A stretch of 64,000 bases of DNA, from the NCBI GenBank assembly GCA_003290465.1, contig CP030759.1:2554572-2618571 (forward strand), written 5' to 3'. This DNA is from Candidatus Sumerlaea chitinivorans (GTDB taxonomy: Bacteria > Sumerlaeota > Sumerlaeia > Sumerlaeales > Sumerlaeaceae). Made by a program: the position numbers and the translations under genes. Every line of letters starts with the position of its first letter. Within the stretch, counting starts at the first letter, position 1. The notes below the pieces were generated by a model. The model was not told the DNA's origin and searched no databases. It worked only from the letters and a program-made list of their open reading frames with translations. This document shows, in pieces, positions 52,352 through 62,690 of the stretch.

Positions 52352-53824
52352 GTGAATTTACTGCTCCTGCTCATTATCTTTGTATTGGCGGCATGGGTCT
52401 ACCGCCTACGCGAACGCGAAGAGAGCTTGCGTGCGCTTATCGATAAGCATCAGCGCGAGCGCAAAGCCATTTTTCTTTTCCTAAACCGCCTTGGAGAGCG
52501 ACTCACCACCTCGAATATCGCCCTCGAGCCCGCGTTGGAAATCATCACGGAGTTTATTGTAGAAGCAACGAATGCCGAAGCGGGTGCCGCATTTTTAATC
52601 GAACCGCAAGAGCAAGTCCTCTCCGCCAAGGTCGTGAAAGGCATGTTTCCTCCTCTCATGCCGACCACCGACTACGTCCTCACAAAGCAGAAGTATTTGG
52701 CCGAGCGCGTCAAACGCGAGAAAATCCCGATCGGGCAAAGCGTCATAGGCGAAGCGGCCAAGGAAGGTATCCCCATTCTCATCGGGGACGCGAGTACAGA
52801 TCCACGAGTGCCAAAAACCGCGTTCGATTACCTAACCATAAAATCGATCATGGTGGCGCCGCTCAGAGCCCGTGGACAAATCAGCGGCGTGTTGGCAGTG
52901 GTGAACAAGCGAGATGGTAGCGCTTTCACCGAAGAGGACATGGACCTCCTCATCTCCCTTGCCGACCAAGCAGCCTCGACCGTGCAACTCGTCAAACTCT
53001 ATGACGAGTTTGCCAAGAAACAGCGCATTGAACAGGAGCTCCGTGTGGCTCACGACTTCCAGCAAATGCTCCTGCCGCGCGAGTGCCCCAGCGTGCCGGG
53101 CTTTGAGATTGCAGCCTTCTCGAAGCCGGCGCAAGAGGTTGGCGGCGACTACTATGATTTCTTCTTCGTGGATGAAGCCAAACGGTATTTAGGCATGGTC
53201 ATTGCCGACGTCTCAGGGAAGGGCATTCCCGGAGCCCTCATCATGTCCATGGTGCGTAGCACGCTGCGCGCGGAGGCCCGCACCAGCCTCTCGCCCCGAG
53301 AGGTATTACTCCGAGCCAACGAACTCGCCTATACCGACACAAAAGAGAACGTGTTCATCACCATGACCTACGGCATCCTCGATACTCGCACCCGGACCTT
53401 CCGATTTGCCCGAGCCGGACACGAACCGTTGGTCACCCTGAAACAGGATAGTGAATCTGTGCGCCTGACCAGCCCCGAAGGGATTGCATTGGGCATGGTC
53501 GACAATAACATCTTTTCCATCATCGAGGAAGCCACCCTTCAGCTGGAGGAAGGCGACCTCGCTGTGCTCTACACCGATGGCGTGGTGGAGGCCATGAATG
53601 AGGAAAAGAATGAGTACGGCAAACAACGATTCTTTGATTTAGTAGTGGCGAATCGCCAGCTTTCGCCTCATGAATTAATCGAGAAAACGCTAAGCGATAT
53701 CGAAGCATTTACGCGGGGCTATCCTCAACACGACGATATCACGCTGGTGGCTTTCAAAGTGTTGGCTCCAGCAGCGACCGTTCACTTACCTGCGGACCAG
53801 TCCCAGCGTGCAGCAAATTCCTAA
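52352..53824 (+). CDS. GAF-PP2C (SpoIIE/RsbU-type) serine phosphatase
   Basis: A 490-residue membrane-anchored phosphatase. An N-terminal hydrophobic anchor (1-16), a short coiled coil, a GAF domain (about 55-215) and a PP2C-like domain (about 245-470) are visible. The PP2C motifs are QEVGGDYYDFF, ADVSGKGIPGAL, ARAGHEP, LYTDGVVEAMN and HDDITLV. In partner-switching systems this enzyme dephosphorylates the STAS antagonist encoded next. The start is GTG 52352. It is first in a same-strand cluster of signalling genes. Confidence 0.92.
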   Translation: MNLLLLLIIFVLAAWVYRLREREESLRALIDKHQRERKAIFLFLNRLGERLTTSNIALEPALEIITEFIVEATNAEAGAAFLIEPQEQVLSAKVVKGMFPPLMPTTDYVLTKQKYLAERVKREKIPIGQSVIGEAAKEGIPILIGDASTDPRVPKTAFDYLTIKSIMVAPLRARGQISGVLAVVNKRDGSAFTEEDMDLLISLADQAASTVQLVKLYDEFAKKQRIEQELRVAHDFQQMLLPRECPSVPGFEIAAFSKPAQEVGGDYYDFFFVDEAKRYLGMVIADVSGKGIPGALIMSMVRSTLRAEARTSLSPREVLLRANELAYTDTKENVFITMTYGILDTRTRTFRFARAGHEPLVTLKQDSESVRLTSPEGIALGMVDNNIFSIIEEATLQLEEGDLAVLYTDGVVEAMNEEKNEYGKQRFFDLVVANRQLSPHELIEKTLSDIEAFTRGYPQHDDITLVAFKVLAPAATVHLPADQSQRAANS

Positions 53825-53855
53825 TTTACACGGTGAGGACGAGAGAAGAAGAAGA

Positions 53856-54245
53856 ATGAAAGCATTTACGTTCGAACAACGCGAAATCAAAGTCGGCGAA
53901 TATGGCTGCACATGCTTTGCTCTTCAGGGCTACATTGATGCTCACACCGTGATTGAATTTGATAAAGCGGTGAATGAGGCCATAGACGGCGGCGCGCTGC
54001 GCATGATGCTCGATATCCAAGGGCTAAGTTATATCTCAAGCGCCGGAATTGGCGCAATGATGGCCCTCGCTCGCCGCTTGGCCCAAAGGGGTGGGGACCT
54101 TGTGCTCGTCAGCCCAACCCCAAAAGTGCATGCCATCTTAGAGGGCCTTGGGTTTACAAAAATCTTCAAGATTGCGTGGAACGAACAAGAAGCCCTCGAG
54201 CAACTTAAACTGGTTGGCCCAAACAAAGACGATGCAAAACCATGA
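53856..54245 (+). CDS. STAS-domain anti-sigma-factor antagonist (RsbV/SpoIIAA-like)
   Basis: A 129-residue STAS protein. MLDIQGLSYISSAGIGAMMALARR (residues 50-73, split here for reference) carries the phosphorylatable Ser, most likely S62 in the S-x-G-I-G site. LVSPTPKVHAILEGLGF is the usual second half. When dephosphorylated it would bind the RsbW-like kinase that follows and free its target. ATG 53856 lies after a purine-rich stretch; an upstream GTG at 53808 overlaps the phosphatase and is unlikely. Confidence 0.92.
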   Translation: MKAFTFEQREIKVGEYGCTCFALQGYIDAHTVIEFDKAVNEAIDGGALRMMLDIQGLSYISSAGIGAMMALARRLAQRGGDLVLVSPTPKVHAILEGLGFTKIFKIAWNEQEALEQLKLVGPNKDDAKP

Positions 54246-54712
54246 TGCAGGAAGCGCCACATACACTCACCCCCCAAATCGAGATTTCGTGCAAGATCGA
54301 CAGCTCGATGTTGGGATTGCTGCGCGATATCATTACAGCGATCGCCCGGCACTTGGGGTTTTCTGAGCAAGAAGCTTCCGAGATTGAGATTTGTGTGGAC
54401 GAAGCCTGCGCAAACGCTCTTGAGCATGCGTATAAACAATCCGGCACCACGAACACGGCCGAGCGTACCAAAGAACTCTGTATAGAGATTCTATATCGCA
54501 ATAACGCACTTGTGGTGCGCGTGAGCGACCGTGGCCATGGTTCCGGCCAAATCCAAGCCCGCTTCTCCACCATTCAAGAATACGCTTCCCCCGAACGTTC
54601 CGAGTATCGTGGCCTCGGCCTCTACCTGATGCAAAAGTTCATGGACGAAGTAAGAATCCAGTCTGAGCCCGGGAAGGGCACCACTGTGGAAATGATCAAG
54701 ATCCGGAAATGA
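54242..54712 (+). CDS. RsbW/SpoIIAB-like serine kinase (anti-sigma factor type)
   Basis: A 156-residue HATPase_c protein. The N-box is VDEACANALEHAY (about 54-66) and the G1/G2 boxes are VSDRGHGSGQI (about 93-103) and YRGLGLYLMQKFMDEV (about 122-137). Overlaps the STAS gene by ATGA and the histidine kinase gene by ATGA, so the three are translationally coupled. It is predicted to phosphorylate the STAS protein. Its sigma-factor or other target is not encoded nearby. Confidence 0.92.
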   Translation: MMQEAPHTLTPQIEISCKIDSSMLGLLRDIITAIARHLGFSEQEASEIEICVDEACANALEHAYKQSGTTNTAERTKELCIEILYRNNALVVRVSDRGHGSGQIQARFSTIQEYASPERSEYRGLGLYLMQKFMDEVRIQSEPGKGTTVEMIKIRK

Positions 54713-56178
54713 ACGCCGCCAGCAAACGGACGATACCACCACGATACCTCCAAGAGCTCACGCTCCAAGAGCAAGTCCACGTCGCGCTGGGAAGTGCCAC
54801 CACTCTTGAGGAGTTTTACCTCATCTTGGGGTGTGTCCTCGTTGACCCGAATATCCTTGCCTTTTCTCGGGCGTTTATCCTTTGCTATGATTCTGTTACC
54901 CAGACGTACACAGGTCGGCTGGCTGTCGGTGCTCTTTCGCGCAAAGAACACGAGCGGATGCGCGCCGAGATCGCTGAAGAGGACCGGCGCCTTTTCGAGC
55001 AAATAGCTGCCGCCCAAGCCGCGAACGCGGAACCTCGAATCCTCCAGCAGCTCTACAACTTACGTTTCCACTCGCTTTGGATCCATCTCATGCAGGAGCA
55101 GGAAGGATCTGTTGGCCTTAACCAAGCCTTCCAGCAAGTCACCCTCCATGAAAACGAACTGCCAGACAATCACCTTGTGCGCCTTGCGGCTCAGTGGGGG
55201 CGCGCTCAAATCGTCCAGCGCGATTCTGTGGACACCCAAGGTTTAAACGAATTCCTGCGTTTCCCACTTTTGGCAGGCCATGTGGTGACAAAACGCGGCC
55301 TTCACGCGGTCGTTTTTGCAGACCGCGCATTCGAGAAGAAGCCCATCAACTCGCTCGCCCAATATCACTTCCAATGGCTCCTGAATCACGCCTCCGTCAC
55401 GCTGGATAACGTCGAGCTGCTCGAAGAGCTCCGACAAAGCTCCGAACGACTGAAAGAGGTGGATCGCATCAAGACCAATTTCCTTTCCATCGTTTCACAT
55501 GAGCTTAGGACGCCTCTGACCGCAATCCTCGGGTTTGTGCAAATTCTACGCGACAAGCAAGTCGGGCCACTCACCCCATTCCAAGAGGACCTCCTAAACC
55601 GCGTCGCCCAGCAGTCGGCGCACTTGGCAAGCCTTGTGCACGATATCCTCGAAGTCGCTGAAGTTGAAGCTGGAGGCATGCTTCAGGTCGAACTCACTGC
55701 CGTTGACCCACTCACCGTGGTCATGCACACCACAACCCGCGTCGAAGAGCGTCGCAAATCCAAAGGCGTCGTCATTGAGACCTTGGTGGAGGAGGCCATC
55801 CCGTTCATCCGGACTGACCCCAACGCCCTTGAGCGGATCCTCTACCATCTACTCGACAACGCAATCAAGTTCAGCCCCACGAATGGCCGCGTGCGCATCT
55901 ATTTCCGACAGCACGACGGCCAACTCCACATAACCATCGAGGACAATGGCATCGGCATCTCGCCAGAAAACCTGCGAAAGATTTTCGATTATTTCTATCA
56001 GGTAGATTTTCGTCTCGAGCGTGCCTACGGCGGCATGGGGCTCGGCCTCACCATTGTGAAGTTGTTACTCGATGCAACCGGCGGACAAATCCGTGTCGAG
56101 TCCGCCGTAGGCTCAGGATCCCGCTTCACCGTTTCTTTCCCCATTGTGGAGTCCCCCGCACTCAATCCAGAAATATAG
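54709..56178 (+). CDS. Sensor histidine kinase coupled to partner-switching genes
   Basis: A 489-residue cytoplasmic kinase without membrane segments. The N-terminal sensory part (about 1-235) is GAF-like. A coiled coil leads to HisKA with phospho-acceptor H264 in FLSIVSHELRTPL. HATPase_c motifs follow: N-box DNAIKFSPT, G1 EDNGIGI, and GGMGLGLTIVK. The start overlaps the RsbW-like gene by ATGA. No response regulator follows; the double-receiver protein at 1591 is far away. It probably feeds another signal into the same switch. Confidence 0.92.
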   Translation: MNAASKRTIPPRYLQELTLQEQVHVALGSATTLEEFYLILGCVLVDPNILAFSRAFILCYDSVTQTYTGRLAVGALSRKEHERMRAEIAEEDRRLFEQIAAAQAANAEPRILQQLYNLRFHSLWIHLMQEQEGSVGLNQAFQQVTLHENELPDNHLVRLAAQWGRAQIVQRDSVDTQGLNEFLRFPLLAGHVVTKRGLHAVVFADRAFEKKPINSLAQYHFQWLLNHASVTLDNVELLEELRQSSERLKEVDRIKTNFLSIVSHELRTPLTAILGFVQILRDKQVGPLTPFQEDLLNRVAQQSAHLASLVHDILEVAEVEAGGMLQVELTAVDPLTVVMHTTTRVEERRKSKGVVIETLVEEAIPFIRTDPNALERILYHLLDNAIKFSPTNGRVRIYFRQHDGQLHITIEDNGIGISPENLRKIFDYFYQVDFRLERAYGGMGLGLTIVKLLLDATGGQIRVESAVGSGSRFTVSFPIVESPALNPEI

Positions 56179-56299
56179 TCCCCCTCGCAGCGCCTACCGA
56201 CTGTAGGAAGACCGTTGGTCGAGGTCTCTCCCGAAATCACCTTTTTCTTCACTTGCACCTCCCCCTTTCTCCGCTATCATGACTTAGTGGTAGGAGCCA

Positions 56300-58915
56300 A
56301 TGACGAGCCTGCGCGAACAGAACCTTACCGCATTGGAAGTCCAGTTCGCTTCCGACCCGACAAATGCGCACGTGCTCATCGCCCTCGCAAGCGAGTACTA
56401 CCGGCGGGGGATCTTCAGCGCGCGTTCCCAGTCCGTTTATGAAAGAGCTCGCGTCGCAGCTCCTCACGAACGACATTTCGAGGAAGGGCTCCATCTGGTT
56501 TGCTTTCTCCGCCAGCTCCGCAACCTAACCATTGAGCTCGGTCAGCCGGATCAAATCGACCCCGAGGGAATTCAGGAGTCCATTGAGCTGGTAAGGGAGT
56601 ACCTCCGCCAACATCCGACGTCCCCGGACCTCTTCGCCGCATTAGGCGATCTCTATCTCGTGCGCGGAAATGTGCTCTTGGCGATCGGTGCGTATGAAAA
56701 CGCCATCAAGTTTGGCTATCACGAGTTTGGTGCAATCCTTCGGAGCTATGAGTTCGCGGCCCGCCTACATACCATCCAGCCAAACGAACGCATCTACTTT
56801 GGGCGAATCTATCGCCAAATGGGGCTCACCGAGCAAGCCATTGAACTCTATCGCACCGCGATTGCAGAAGGCTTCCATGACCCAGAGACGATTCGGGGAC
56901 TCGTGGACCTCCTCGAGCAGGAAGCCAAGACGGCCACCAATCAAAACGTGCTCAACAACCTCTACATGGAGATCTGCGAGCTGTGGCTTCTGCTTGGCGA
57001 TTCGGATCAGGCGCTGGAAAGCTTCCGCCGGGTTCGTTTCCCCATCAATCAAAACTATGCACTCGTGCGCAAAGTAGCCGCCATTCTCATCGACCGCCAG
57101 GATTATCGCTTGGCCTTTGACTACCTCTCGCACTTACCTGTGGACGAGGAGACCAAGGAGCTCCTCAATCGCATCGCGGTAGAATTGGAAAAGATCGGGG
57201 ACCTCGACACCGCGACTTTTCTCCTGCGATTCATCAACGAGAATGACATTGTCATTCGCGAGGCCGAGGCCCTCCGGGAGAAGGAAATCGAGATCAACAC
57301 CGAGCTCGCGGTTGCAGAACTCAACGAGTCGCAGGGCCGCTACGACCAAGCACTTTCAGCTTACGTCAAAGTCCTGAAACTGGGTTACAAGGAAGATTAT
57401 GCGATTCTCTCGCGCATCGTCGAGCTTCTTCCTCTCATCAAATCGGACCACATCGAGGACTTCTATTTCATCGGGCAATATTATCTCGACCGCAAGGATT
57501 GGTACCGGTCAGCCCAGTTTTACGATCTTGTCCTTGAGCGCCGACAGGGGGACCCCCTTGCCCGCCAGAAACTCCGCGAGATTTACGACGCAATCTTGGG
57601 AGCAAATCCCCATCTACCCGAATTGCGGCTTCGCAGCGGGGACCTTTACTTAGAAACCGGTGCCTTGGATCTGGCCATTGCGGAATACAAACACGCTGCA
57701 CAATTCCCCGAGACCAATATCGAAGCAACGCGACGCCTTGCCATCGCCTACATGAAACAACAACAATTCACCGAGGCGTTTGAAGCGTTCCAAGCGCTTC
57801 CCGTGGCTGAGGTGGATTTGGAAAACCTCTATCAGCTCCACCTCATTTTCAACGGGCGCGGCCGGGTCGCCGAAGCGCTCAATCTTCTGCAAATGATCCA
57901 CACCGTGGACGAAAACTACCGCGACGTAGCCGAGCGCATCGCATTGCTCCGCCAGAAGTTCGAGGAGCAGTCCCAAGCGATGTTCGTTGATCCGGTGATG
58001 CTCGATCTCATCGGGGAAGCGGCGGTCGGACGCTATCGGTACATTGAAAAAATCGGCAGCGGCGGAATGGGCGTCGTTCACAAAGTCTACGACCTCAAAC
58101 TCAACAAACCCGTTGCCATGAAAATCCTGCGCGAAGGGCTGGCGGGCAGCGGCAAGGCGATCGAGCGTTTCTTCCGCGAAGCGCGCATCGCGGCCACACT
58201 CAACCACCCGAACATCGTCAACATCTACGATTACAACATCAACCAACAAACCCACAAAAGCTACATCGCGATGGAATACGTGGATGGGCCTTCGCTGCGC
58301 GACATGTTTGAAGATTATTTCGTGTCTGGCCCTCCACCCCTCGAGCAACGTGTCGTGGATGCGCTCTACTATATCTCCCAGATTTGTGACGCCTTGCAGA
58401 TCACACACTCAAAAGGCATCATTCACCGCGACATCAAACCCGACAACATTCTGATTAGCTCCCAGCGCATTGCCAAAATTACGGATTTTGGCATTGTCCA
58501 TATCGAGGAGGCCACCTTTACCCCAACAGGCGCACTCATCGGTACCCCCCGCTACATGTCGCCCGAACAGGTGATGGGTACGCGTCTCGACGGACGCGCG
58601 GATCTCTACTCGGCAGGCATCATTCTTTACGAGTGGCTGGTAGGTGCACCCCCCTTTGTAACCGGAGATGTTGCCTACCAGCAGGTCAACATCCCGCCAG
58701 TCCCGCCGGTTGAGCAAAACCCAGATATCCCCCTTGAGGTCAACAACATCATCATGAAGTGCCTCGAGAAGAATCCCGCGGACCGCTTCCAGACCGCCCT
58801 CGACTTAAAGCACGCGCTCGAGCTCGCTTTGAGCCATCTTACGGGAAAACCAACGCCCGCACCCCCGCCACGCCTGAAACTGCCCGGGGAAACCGACATG
58901 GACACAATTATTTAG
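56300..58915 (+). CDS. TPR-repeat Ser/Thr protein kinase
   Basis: An 871-residue protein with N-terminal TPR-like helical repeats (about 1-560) and a C-terminal Hanks-type kinase domain (about 577-840). The glycine loop is GSGGMGVVHKVY (about 585), followed by the ATP-lysine in VAMKIL and the catalytic loop HRDIKPDN (about 709-716). ITDFGIV, GTPRYMSPEQ and the APE-like region with GRADLYSAG are also intact, so it should be active. It has no membrane segment. Kinase domains usually precede the TPRs; here the order is reversed. GGAG precedes ATG 56300. It follows the histidine kinase by 121 bp and is the last of the signalling cluster. Confidence 0.93.
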   Translation: MTSLREQNLTALEVQFASDPTNAHVLIALASEYYRRGIFSARSQSVYERARVAAPHERHFEEGLHLVCFLRQLRNLTIELGQPDQIDPEGIQESIELVREYLRQHPTSPDLFAALGDLYLVRGNVLLAIGAYENAIKFGYHEFGAILRSYEFAARLHTIQPNERIYFGRIYRQMGLTEQAIELYRTAIAEGFHDPETIRGLVDLLEQEAKTATNQNVLNNLYMEICELWLLLGDSDQALESFRRVRFPINQNYALVRKVAAILIDRQDYRLAFDYLSHLPVDEETKELLNRIAVELEKIGDLDTATFLLRFINENDIVIREAEALREKEIEINTELAVAELNESQGRYDQALSAYVKVLKLGYKEDYAILSRIVELLPLIKSDHIEDFYFIGQYYLDRKDWYRSAQFYDLVLERRQGDPLARQKLREIYDAILGANPHLPELRLRSGDLYLETGALDLAIAEYKHAAQFPETNIEATRRLAIAYMKQQQFTEAFEAFQALPVAEVDLENLYQLHLIFNGRGRVAEALNLLQMIHTVDENYRDVAERIALLRQKFEEQSQAMFVDPVMLDLIGEAAVGRYRYIEKIGSGGMGVVHKVYDLKLNKPVAMKILREGLAGSGKAIERFFREARIAATLNHPNIVNIYDYNINQQTHKSYIAMEYVDGPSLRDMFEDYFVSGPPPLEQRVVDALYYISQICDALQITHSKGIIHRDIKPDNILISSQRIAKITDFGIVHIEEATFTPTGALIGTPRYMSPEQVMGTRLDGRADLYSAGIILYEWLVGAPPFVTGDVAYQQVNIPPVPPVEQNPDIPLEVNNIIMKCLEKNPADRFQTALDLKHALELALSHLTGKPTPAPPPRLKLPGETDMDTII

Positions 58916-59687: not shown

Positions 59688-60314
59688 TCAATAGCGCCGC
59701 AAATTCACTGCAAAGCTCCTCGTAGCAATAATCCAATTCGAGCGCTTCGTCGGATCGCGAAATGACCGCCGAGCCAGCCCCTGATCATTCACCTCTAATT
59801 GGACTAAAATGAGAGAGTTATCTAACGAACCTGTCGGAAGAATCCCAGAAGCGAACCAGACGTACTCAAGGCGCGTCAGATTCGACGCCCCAACCGCTCC
59901 GTCCAACCGCTGCTCATTGTTGGCGACCGAGCGATCCGGATCGTAAATCAATTGGCGGGTGGTGGGATCAAACCGAAGCTCCTGATTCGGAGCGTTGTCC
60001 GCTGATCGAAAAATAATTCGATAGAAAAAGACCTCCTGCCCACTGACCTGACCGGGCACGGCATCCGACACGGAGAAAGGAACCACATTATTGCGCGACG
60101 CGTTGCGCAAAATATCCATGATCTTATCTTCGAGCAGGTCTGCCCGCTTTGCCACTTGCGTTTCAATGAAAGCAATCCGCTGCTGCCGCGCAACGTTCAC
60201 GAGCAAATACACGATTGCCACACCCAAGACCGCGGCGATGGCAGCGCCAATGACTATCTCTACTAAAGTCATTGCACGACTGTGGGCTTTCAGCCCTTGA
60301 GTCCGCTTTCTCAT
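59688..60314 (-). CDS. Type IV pilin-like (PilW/PulJ-type) minor pilin
   Basis: A 208-residue prepilin. The cleavage site is A14 before M15 in RAMTLVEIVIG, with Glu at +5 and a hydrophobic helix to about residue 40. Position -1 is Ala rather than Gly. The globular part has FFYRIIFRSADN and QLIYDPDRSVAN. Starts one base after the upstream prepilin stop, so co-expression is certain if the operon is transcribed. It is probably a minor pilin or pseudopilin of a type IV pilus or type II secretion system. Confidence 0.88.
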   Translation of the reverse strand: MRKRTQGLKAHSRAMTLVEIVIGAAIAAVLGVAIVYLLVNVARQQRIAFIETQVAKRADLLEDKIMDILRNASRNNVVPFSVSDAVPGQVSGQEVFFYRIIFRSADNAPNQELRFDPTTRQLIYDPDRSVANNEQRLDGAVGASNLTRLEYVWFASGILPTGSLDNSLILVQLEVNDQGLARRSFRDPTKRSNWIIATRSFAVNLRRY

Positions 60315-60315
60315 T

Positions 60316-60909
60316 TCAATTAAACTCCGGATAGATGACCGTGTCCATGTCCAGCGTTTGCACTTGGCGTCCTATGCCCAGCGGGGGACGCCACCGAGTC
60401 TCTAATCGGATCAACTTTGCTCGCGCCGTTCCCCCCACCATTTGGGTAGAGATCGTCACCCGATACTCTGGGTTTCTATTCTTCAGCCACTCCAGATCAG
60501 GATGAAAGATCAGAAACGCTGAGGTATAGAGTGAGCGCCATTGTCCGTCGGACGGCGGAAAACTAATGTTCACAGTCGTTCTGGTCCCATTTGGCAAGAG
60601 GATTTGCCGCGTGCCATCGTAGAGCGCATTGATGGGTCGATTCGGCGCCACGTTATCATAAGGACCAGCTCGCGCCACTTCCAAGTAGTGGTGCATGAAG
60701 TCGAGCATAATCCCCCGATCGCGCGCTTTTGCCGACTCAACCCGCGTGTAACTCAGAACCCCCAGCGTCAGTAGAAAAGCAGCACCTATAATCAGTGAAG
60801 CAATCACGATCTCTATTAGAGACATTCCCCGGTTGCGTCGCGATGCTGGTGTTATCAATCTACTTTTGCCGGGCGAGATGGATAATGCAGTGCCTTGCCA
60901 ACGAATCAT
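60316..60909 (-). CDS. Type IV pilin-like (PilV-type) minor pilin
   Basis: A 197-residue prepilin with G28 before M29 in RRNRGMSLIEIVIASL, Glu at +5 (E33) and a long hydrophobic helix. The start ATG 60909 is preceded by GAGGAA. The cleavage context and length match PilV-like minor pilins. It is immediately followed by the second prepilin, and the PilX-like gene lies just upstream (120 bp). Confidence 0.88.
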   Translation of the reverse strand: MIRWQGTALSISPGKSRLITPASRRNRGMSLIEIVIASLIIGAAFLLTLGVLSYTRVESAKARDRGIMLDFMHHYLEVARAGPYDNVAPNRPINALYDGTRQILLPNGTRTTVNISFPPSDGQWRSLYTSAFLIFHPDLEWLKNRNPEYRVTISTQMVGGTARAKLIRLETRWRPPLGIGRQVQTLDMDTVIYPEFN

Positions 60910-61028
60910 CCCGTTCCTCAGTGTACCTACTATATTCCCAAATTCAGGTGGTATTAATTACTGCCCCATCTCTATCAGGGCGAACTGATTGCAAAACACA
61001 CTGCAAGAGGCACCTCACGGTTCCCAAA

Positions 61029-62690
61029 CTAATTTGCAGATACGACTTCTTTACGATCGACAATCTTTGTCTTATAGGCAATCGGCAGCTCGAGATCCAC
61101 GATCTTATTTCCATCGCTATCAAAGTACTTATGGACGTACCTTCCATGGATACGATAGTCGTACCAGAACGTGAGACTATTCGAGAAAATGACCGCTTCA
61201 TCTCGACAGATAAGGGCACCATACATATTGACTGGTCCTTGGCTGGTGTAACCGCCAAAAGCATGGTTAGTGTAAAAAATCCCAGTAATCTTGGTGATAG
61301 CCGAGCTCGAAATGGTATTGAAATCCACCGGTTGGTTGTTTGACGTCGGATAGCCTTGTATTTTCGAAGCGCGAGAGCTCGTCATCTGAAAATCATTCGA
61401 CCAACTATAATTGGTTGTCCGAATGACACCGTCCTCATCCGCATCGTAAGCCGCACTATCGGGCCGGCCGTCGTTGTTTGTGTCTAAGTATGGGATACCG
61501 TCGTCAGCTGTTCCACGAATTCCGTCCCGGCCGAGCTGGTCCTCGCGGCCCAGATTCGCAAGACCGTAGTTACTTGGGGTCATCACACGTGTATTCCAAG
61601 TTGAGCTATTCACCTGGCCGAACAATATGTGGCCTCGCGCAGCAAATCCGATCAGATCTTTCCCTGCTGCAAACTGTTGATCTACCCAGCTATCATACCA
61701 TGCTTGCCGTTGCGCGGGAGTCATACTTGCATGATTGGGAGGTAGAGACCATGTTGGGCCATTCTTATAGTCGAGGTTTCCCGCTATATAGATATTTCCC
61801 CCCGCATAGACGGTTCCTGTTCCAGTAATTACCCCGTCAAGAATTACATCCCCATTTACCACGACGGTACCACTGATCTGAATCGGATTCGTACTCGTGC
61901 CTTTCAGATAAACTCCTGTTTTCGTTCCACTAAAACCAAACGTCTTATTGACGATCACCGTGTTACCCTGTTTGATCGTCCCATTAGCTTTTTGAATGTA
62001 ATAAGTAAGATCCTTGAGATTGGGCATTTTTACTCGCTCAGTACCCACATGGCAGTAGGTCAGAGGATCAGAGCCTGCCCAACCTTTGAAAGGCGGAGAA
62101 GCAAATGGATTCACAGGCACCAAATTCGATTCGATCTGTGCGGCCGCGTAAATATGGCCGTTCACCGTGGGCTTATCTTTGAAATCAAAGTCCCAGTTCG
62201 AGCGGTTATCACCATTGCCTGTGATGCTTGAACCCCACCACCAGCCCCAGTTGTTTAGGAAGTACTCGTGGTTAAAGACTTGCGATGGGGGACGGTACTG
62301 GACACGCGCCTGGAGGGTCCGGCGCTTGCCATTCACATTCGCGGTTGCCGTCACTAAATGGTAAGTTGGCACATTCTGCGGATCCGGCCCTATCGTAAAG
62401 GTAACTTCCTTGACATCTCCGTCAGGAGTGTTCGGGAGACTCGACGCCGTGTACGTCCCATAAATCGACTGCACGGTTTGGGTCGCTGGCACATCCGCGA
62501 TCTTTTGGACACCTTCCAGCAACGCTACCTCAGCAGCATAGTACGCTTCGCTCCAGTGAATCCGGTTATATTGCCGGCTATGCTCGTAGCGGGTGAGACC
62601 GAGCAGTCCCACACAAACGACAAGGAGAATCGCCGACACCACGGCACTCTGAAGGAGCACTGTTCCCTTAGCGTTTTTTGCGAGCCCCAT
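61029..62690 (-). CDS. Large PilX-like pilus-associated protein with Ca-binding-like motifs
   Basis: A 553-residue protein with a prepilin-like N-terminus: KG, then TVLLQSAVVSAILLVVCVGL, lacking Glu at +5. The passenger contains beta-rich repeats (about 235-310) with VVVNGDVILDGVITGTGTVY and IYIAGNLDY, like polymer-forming cytoskeletal or autotransported beta helices. Asp/Asn-rich loops DTNNDGRPDSAAYDADEDG (about 405-425) and DSDGN (near 530) resemble EF-hand Ca sites, as in PilY1-like adhesins. GGAGG precedes the ATG. The DNA is noticeably more AT-rich than neighbours. It heads the prepilin operon. Confidence 0.82.
   Translation of the reverse strand: MGLAKNAKGTVLLQSAVVSAILLVVCVGLLGLTRYEHSRQYNRIHWSEAYYAAEVALLEGVQKIADVPATQTVQSIYGTYTASSLPNTPDGDVKEVTFTIGPDPQNVPTYHLVTATANVNGKRRTLQARVQYRPPSQVFNHEYFLNNWGWWWGSSITGNGDNRSNWDFDFKDKPTVNGHIYAAAQIESNLVPVNPFASPPFKGWAGSDPLTYCHVGTERVKMPNLKDLTYYIQKANGTIKQGNTVIVNKTFGFSGTKTGVYLKGTSTNPIQISGTVVVNGDVILDGVITGTGTVYAGGNIYIAGNLDYKNGPTWSLPPNHASMTPAQRQAWYDSWVDQQFAAGKDLIGFAARGHILFGQVNSSTWNTRVMTPSNYGLANLGREDQLGRDGIRGTADDGIPYLDTNNDGRPDSAAYDADEDGVIRTTNYSWSNDFQMTSSRASKIQGYPTSNNQPVDFNTISSSAITKITGIFYTNHAFGGYTSQGPVNMYGALICRDEAVIFSNSLTFWYDYRIHGRYVHKYFDSDGNKIVDLELPIAYKTKIVDRKEVVSAN

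Follow-up and report, generated by a model that had tools for sequence, protein, structure and literature searches.

What does a partner switch control when the gene of its serine kinase is followed by that of a histidine kinase (HK) and no sigma factor gene is at hand? Partner switches are thought of as regulators of sigma factors, with a few enzymes among their clients. The question is raised by a five-gene cluster of Candidatus Sumerlaea chitinivorans (phylum Sumerlaeota), located at positions 52,352 to 58,915 of the 64,000-nucleotide stretch analyzed here, hereafter the window (contig CP030759.1, positions 2,554,572 to 2,618,571 of the forward strand), which is part of a single-contig genome of 3.29 Mb. 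An HK occupies the sigma gene's place nearly throughout the phylum, often followed by a kinase of a second kind, a pattern suggestive of a switch that drives kinase signaling instead of a sigma factor. An earlier reading made from the window's letters alone (the sequence-only reading) had described same-strand genes for a PP2C phosphatase, a STAS antagonist, an RsbW-like kinase and an HK with a TPR-Ser/Thr kinase downstream, and all five are indeed present on the + strand in the order GAF-PP2C phosphatase, STAS, RsbW-like kinase, HK and TPR-Ser/Thr kinase, as called from the window's genes and Pfam domains:

52352..53824, + strand: RsbU-like phosphatase of 490 amino acids, with an N-terminal transmembrane segment, a GAF domain and a SpoIIE-type PP2C domain (Pfam GAF_2, 1.4e-17; SpoIIE, 1.1e-51).
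53856..54245, + strand: RsbV/SpoIIAA-like STAS antagonist, 129 amino acids from ATG 53856 (Pfam STAS, 4.1e-19; NCBIfam TIGR00377 over its cut-off; PDB SpoIIAA, 6.9e-11).
54039..54041, + strand: codon of STAS Ser62, the predicted phosphorylation site, a Ser in all 25 orthologues that corresponds to the leading Ser of DSSG in SpoIIAA.
54242..54712, + strand: RsbW/SpoIIAB-like Ser kinase of 156 amino acids with a HATPase_c_2 domain (Pfam HATPase_c_2, 1.4e-24; PDB RsbW 6m36, 2.2e-25).
54709..56178, + strand: soluble GAF-histidine kinase of 489 amino acids with HisKA and HATPase_c domains (Pfam HisKA, 1.7e-18; HATPase_c, 1.4e-28) and an N-terminal GAF fold.
55498..55500, + strand: codon of HK His264, the predicted phospho-accepting histidine, in an SHELRTP H-box; His in 31 of 31 orthologues.
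56300..58915, + strand: TPR-Ser/Thr protein kinase of 871 amino acids (Pfam Pkinase, 1.9e-50, and TPR families).

The ATGA overlaps reported by the sequence-only reading lie at 54242-54245 (STAS/RsbW) and 54709-54712 (RsbW/HK), and the 121-bp gap that it placed before the TPR kinase gene was confirmed; a promoter or terminator was sought between the HK and TPR kinase genes and none was found, the counts being no better than in shuffles. For the STAS gene, the ATG at 53856 is the more likely start than the GTG at 53808, which would give a longer form overlapping the PP2C gene, because the STAS proteins of relatives align from the equivalent of that ATG.

The cluster was compared by tblastn and profile searches across 40 Sumerlaeota genomes (genomes are designated G000 to G039, and loci by the L000 series, as in the analysis). 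Most of these are draft assemblies, so that single absences carry little weight, and the counts are non-independent by kinship. An orthologue of the HK over its full or most of its length was detected in 31 of the 40 genomes (best E ≤ 2.5e-47), counted as one locus per genome, which gives 30 loci including the window's own, plus that of G039. In 24 of the 31 loci, the PP2C, STAS, RsbW and HK genes follow one another in this order, all on the same strand and contig, and the recurrence of an identical order argues that the arrangement is not due to chance; G039, which belongs to another class, also carries the four-gene order. Of the 30 loci in which this can be judged, 26 have the HK gene immediately 3′ of rsbW, namely 25 loci together with G023, which was scored positive across two contig ends that fit together, whereas G003 was omitted from the count with its HK cut by a contig end. 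Across the phylum, the HK thus belongs to the switch as a conserved component. Among the 40 genomes, 26 have both RsbW and the HK, three have RsbW only, five the HK only and six neither (Fisher p 0.007, uncorrected for kinship). G001 was scored as having RsbW only, with approximately the first 66 HK residues following RsbW before the HK breaks off, and in G004 the contig stops about 300 bp past RsbW. The presence of RsbW in the genomes of family f14 (G036-G038) was considered and rejected, as only PP2C, or PP2C with STAS, is present there and no switch protein showed up in the subsequent frames scanned.

Conservation extends to the gene order but not to the overlaps: in the 25 loci where these were measured, the 4-bp RsbW/HK overlap recurs besides the window only in G030 and G031, and the 4-bp STAS/RsbW overlap occurs in the window alone. 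This lack of conserved overlaps, together with the persistence of the HK without adjoining switch genes in G012, G013 and G032, would be expected if the HK were merely co-transcribed with the switch and shared no signaling with it. We regard such a passenger role as very unlikely, however, as the order is held in the same 26 of 30 loci, G039 of a different class among them, with no such conservation of the genes beyond.

Judged from their domains and residues, the components of an RsbUVW-type switch are all present, namely a sensor-bearing SpoIIE-type PP2C, a STAS protein with the Ser, and a stand-alone RsbW-like GHKL Ser kinase. The phosphatase has a hydrophobic N-terminus in 23 of the 24 orthologues examined and well-conserved PP2C motifs, and is probably anchored in the membrane; a membrane segment is absent from RsbW, STAS and the TPR kinase and present in 2 of 31 HKs. 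In the comparison with PDB structures, STAS Ser62 falls on the first of the two serines in the DSSG motif of SpoIIAA, and we take this serine to be the phosphorylated Ser58 of that protein. The cluster's kinase is of the stand-alone GHKL type and matches RsbW and SpoIIAB models (no search was aimed at RsbR, RsbS or RsbT), with RsbW 6m36 as the top PDB match of its profile (2.2e-25). Its Arg28, Glu54 and Asn58 are retained in all 24 alignment rows having a residue there, and Asp96 in 25 of 25. The cluster proteins look active, in that catalytic and phospho-acceptor residues are intact in every orthologue having a residue at the position.

The same holds for the HK, whose His264, Asn384 and Asp412 are kept in 31 of 31 orthologues, and in which the H-box His, the N-box, the G-boxes and the dimerization and ATPase domains of the HisKA class were all found. 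In Pfam searches the N-terminal part of the window's HK matched nothing, and that of 7 of 26 orthologues matched GAF_3 weakly. Because a fold search with the whole HK was filled by kinase cores, the N-terminal domain was modeled alone; the AlphaFold2 model of residues 10-245 (pLDDT 86.3) has a GAF fold with a helical insert, matching 5w10 in Foldseek (E 2.4e-5) and 3oov in VIA-align (Z 17.9, 155 aligned residues, root-mean-square deviation 2.5).

No sigma factor gene accompanies the switch, as the sequence-only reading had noted: none was detected in the window at 1e-4 when five sigma factors of this genome served as tblastn queries, and searches with five window-genome sigmas at 1e-6 found none near any of 39 Sumerlaeota switch loci. 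No SigB/F/G-type sigma factor exceeded its cut-off in any of the 40 genomes, a cut-off that only 1 of 14 genomes of a control set passed. The suggestion of the sequence-only reading that the target is something other than a sigma factor is therefore reasonable, given an HK that is a phylum-wide member of the switch and the absence of a sigma gene near all 39 loci. We tentatively propose that this HK, standing in the slot of the sigma gene, is the client of RsbW, a reading reached by elimination and from the place that the HK occupies.

The main rival to the HK as client is an unlinked sigma factor under the control of the switch, most probably an RpoS-like one of group 2, with the HK as a co-expressed sensor alongside. 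The window genome encodes RpoD, one RpoS-like group 2 sigma factor (at G000:C1:550732-551568; best curated match TIGR02394, below its cut-off) and four sigma factors of the extracytoplasmic function type. Arg28 is retained in RsbW and corresponds in the alignment to an Arg of SpoIIAB that presumably has a role in binding both the sigma factor and the antagonist. An RpoS-like match at E ≤ 1e-50 was obtained in 31 of the 40 genomes, and a group 2 sigma factor is conceivable as a distant client because these matches comprise 25 of the 29 genomes with RsbW and 6 of the 11 without it (Fisher p 0.08). Moreover, a partner switch has RpoS as its client in Pseudomonas aeruginosa (PMC6482189, in excerpt). 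We nevertheless consider this possibility somewhat unlikely. The RpoS-like gene is never near the switch in the 39 loci, it is kept in the RsbW-less genomes G005, G012, G013, G015, G028 and G032, and at E ≤ 1e-50 it was not found in G039, the most distant genome, though the whole switch is present there. An unlinked sigma factor also does not explain why the HK is a fixed member of the locus.

A different relationship would have the HK upstream of the switch, sensing through its GAF domain and setting the phosphatase or STAS by way of an unlinked response regulator or by direct contact. Inputs of this kind are known from RsfSR of Mycobacterium smegmatis and RsbK/RsbY of Bacillus cereus (PMC10950880 and PMC3999984, both in excerpt), and within the same phylum G006 has STAS-RsbW beside a hybrid HK and a receiver-PP2C protein. 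A receiver partner for the HK was sought in the cluster and not found; the window genome has 30 receiver matches, some of them in frames short enough to stand alone. RsfSR and RsbK/RsbY, however, use a receiver fused to PP2C, in place of which the cluster's PP2C has a transmembrane segment and a GAF domain. The window genome has two SpoIIE phosphatases (one TM-GAF-PP2C, with a transmembrane segment, and one FHA-GAF-PP2C), four STAS proteins and one stand-alone RsbW, and no receiver was found fused to PP2C, STAS or the stand-alone RsbW. Its sole receiver-RsbW fusion (L065:5425-6405, near 0.974 Mb) has Thr at the phospho-Asp position. With neither a receiver-PP2C nor a receiver-STAS protein and with this substitution in the fusion, the known route from an HK to the switch is missing from the genome, and we regard the HK as an unlikely input to the switch.

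The TPR-Ser/Thr kinase behind the HK has the catalytic set of a Hanks-type Pkinase, with Lys608, Asp711 and Asp729 kept in all 30 rows having a residue there. The sequence-only reading had singled out the conservation of both kinases with the switch genes in relatives as the comparison that could refute it; this conservation was found for the HK and only in part for the TPR kinase, which comes next after the HK in 10 of 31 loci, is linked to the cluster in G033 and G015 as well, and is elsewhere or absent in the others. In G033, one antisense kinase gene is inserted between the HK and the TPR kinase. In G015, PP2C-STAS is followed by a stretch that on visual inspection looks like the C-terminal end of an HK, and next by the TPR kinase, an order implying that RsbW and most of the HK were lost from the five-gene order or dropped from it in assembly. 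The 10 adjacent loci are spread over six family codes, and the adjacency label needs five changes on the HK tree, a distribution that fits an ancestral link between HK and TPR kinase that was lost several times. TPR-kinase matches at E ≤ 1e-85 occur in 35 of the 40 genomes, often far from the switch, and no recurring partner gene was recognized beside the distant TPR kinases among 20 loci, three of which gave no TPR kinase call. Two genes that follow the HK elsewhere were considered as equivalents and rejected, namely a 762-residue gene in G035, which has a weak match to the PMT_2 membrane enzymes and is unrelated, and a GGDEF protein in G039 with no meaningful similarity. The pattern fits an old but loose and dispensable fifth member of the cluster. 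Separately, the window genome encodes a STAS-TPR fusion protein (L062:7611-8531) that echoes the TPR part of the switch-linked kinase.

The sequence-only reading had proposed that this kinase joins Ser/Thr and His-Asp signaling on one switch, in which case it would be a second kinase for STAS and the switch would integrate two kinds of phosphorylation. Its recurrence after the HK with catalytic residues intact would suit such a role, as would G015, which lacks RsbW and almost the entire HK and in which the TPR kinase comes directly after PP2C-STAS and STAS keeps its Ser. There is reportedly a precedent in Mycobacterium tuberculosis, where PknD acts on the STAS protein Rv0516c. Set against this, the TPR kinase is unlinked or absent in most genomes, it is retained where RsbW is absent, as in G005 and G028, and G035 has the switch and the HK and no TPR kinase match at 1e-60. 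We consider a role as second STAS kinase decidedly unlikely.

Returning to the HK as client of RsbW, several observations weigh against it. Retention of the HK without RsbW counts against tight coupling. This is seen in G008 (PP2C-STAS-HK, with no room for RsbW), in G012 and G013 (HK-TPR kinase without adjoining switch genes; no RsbW match was obtained at 1e-6 in G013, a genome of 96% completeness) and in G032 (HK alone, in a genome 66% complete), and it indicates that the HK can be useful alone. G006, which is without the switch-linked GAF-HK, has its STAS-RsbW adjoining a PAS-HK-REC-REC-Hpt hybrid kinase (REC, receiver domain) and a receiver-PP2C (L092), the classic input wiring. An RsbW-profile scan of 84,980 species genomes, a sample only, because one peptide pattern was used, gave 49 loci, 23 of them Sumerlaeota-like and 26 from other phyla as sorted by title and gene content. 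An HK directly follows RsbW in 20 of the 20 Sumerlaeota-like loci that reach through an HK, and in none of the 26 loci from other phyla, 23 of which have at least 1 kb 3′ of rsbW, a contrast that speaks for the HK as client. The next gene was scanned in 20 of these 23 (in L131 and L133, the shorter same-strand frame), and grpE follows rsbW in seven of the 20, six from Verrucomicrobia and one from Auribacterota. Three Armatimonadetes loci (L120, L129 and L133) have in this position an RsbU_N-V4R protein in which no phosphatase domain was found. What occupies the position after rsbW thus depends on the lineage, a warning against always taking it for the client; the argument from the slot is weak on its own, and adjacency gives no direction.

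The grpE arrangement is also of note in its own right. The gene stands directly after STAS-rsbW in L114, L117, L131, L134, L135 and L136 (Verrucomicrobia) and in L142 (Auribacterota), which repeatedly associates a chaperone gene with a partner switch, and we found no paper in the open-access literature searched that mentions grpE, RsbW and Verrucomicrobi together.

On the pattern of the RsbUVW and SpoIIAA-AB families, a signal perceived at the GAF domain of the membrane-anchored PP2C would lead to dephosphorylation of STAS Ser62, the unphosphorylated STAS would capture RsbW, and phosphorylation of STAS by RsbW would reset the system. If the HK is the client of RsbW, which is the new element here, the switch would gate either autophosphorylation of the HK or transfer of its phosphoryl group to an unlinked response regulator, and the HK, having a GAF domain of its own, would become a gate with two inputs; these proteins may also be acted on by the TPR-Ser/Thr kinase. 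In its full form the model would have RsbW as an anti-kinase that restrains the HK as RsbW restrains SigB, with unphosphorylated STAS freeing the HK, a Ser switch thereby gating His-Asp signaling, and the TPR kinase adding an extra layer in some lineages. We put this forward as a doubtful but possible scheme.

The cluster resembles RsbU-RsbV-RsbW-SigB and SpoIIE-SpoIIAA-SpoIIAB-SigF in its SpoIIE-type PP2C, its STAS protein with a phosphorylatable Ser, its HATPase Ser kinase and the position of STAS before RsbW, and it differs from both in having a GAF-HK after rsbW and no sigma gene in the operon or nearby. With the receiver-PP2C switches (RsbK/RsbY of B. cereus, RsfS/RsfR of M. smegmatis, RbaVWY of R. 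capsulatus and HsbR of P. aeruginosa) it shares an HK tied to a STAS/RsbW switch, but in those systems the HK feeds a receiver on the phosphatase, whereas the phosphatase and STAS of the window are without a receiver. That a client can be something other than a sigma factor is plausible from SiaABCD and HsbA-HsbD, STAS switches with enzyme clients. The client SiaD of SiaABCD is a diguanylate cyclase, as is HsbD in the HsbA-HsbD switch (the latter from PMC6482189, in excerpt); the cluster in the window contains no such enzyme. A precedent for an HK as client is offered by stressosome loci of Vibrio, where two-component genes occur instead of a sigma gene and have been proposed as targets of RsbT (PMC9237108; also PMC12143880; both in excerpt). 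The Vibrio vulnificus-type stressosome likewise has two-component genes replacing the sigma gene downstream of an Rsb switch kinase, but is of the RsbR-S-T-X type, whereas the Sumerlaeota module is of the RsbU-V-W type with a GAF-HK. In the open-access literature searched we found no description of the PP2C-STAS-RsbW-HK arrangement, and the main text of the Sumerlaeota papers searched contained none of the terms Rsb, partner and histidine kinase.

A phylum that has kept the switch, but with an HK in the position of the sigma gene, provides a natural experiment on whether two-component signaling can be gated directly by RsbV/RsbW logic. No pure culture of the phylum is reported in PMC8092238, which mentions a complete genome of Candidatus Sumerlaea chitinivorans BY40. 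Four of the five cluster proteins look soluble and could be made in Escherichia coli, so that the question is answerable at the bench.

Several features around the switch loci complete the description. The pilus genes beyond the cluster, which the sequence-only reading had offered as a possible target, were rejected in that role, as such genes adjoin the switch only in the window and in G029/G030, in the latter on the other side and in another orientation; no genera but the window's and one other have them as neighbors. In the window, a small cluster with a weak pilin N-methylation motif (59688-62690, - strand) is downstream of and convergent with the switch, and in G029/G030 (L031 and L032) the pilin-motif cluster is upstream and codirectional. 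At the other end of the window, a 385-residue frame (1591-2748, - strand) has two receiver-domain matches and apparently no output domain. Finally, an ABC-transporter ATPase gene follows the HK in G008, G009 and G011 (L041, L044 and L058), and the ATPases of G008 and G011 are 54% identical over 259 aligned positions.

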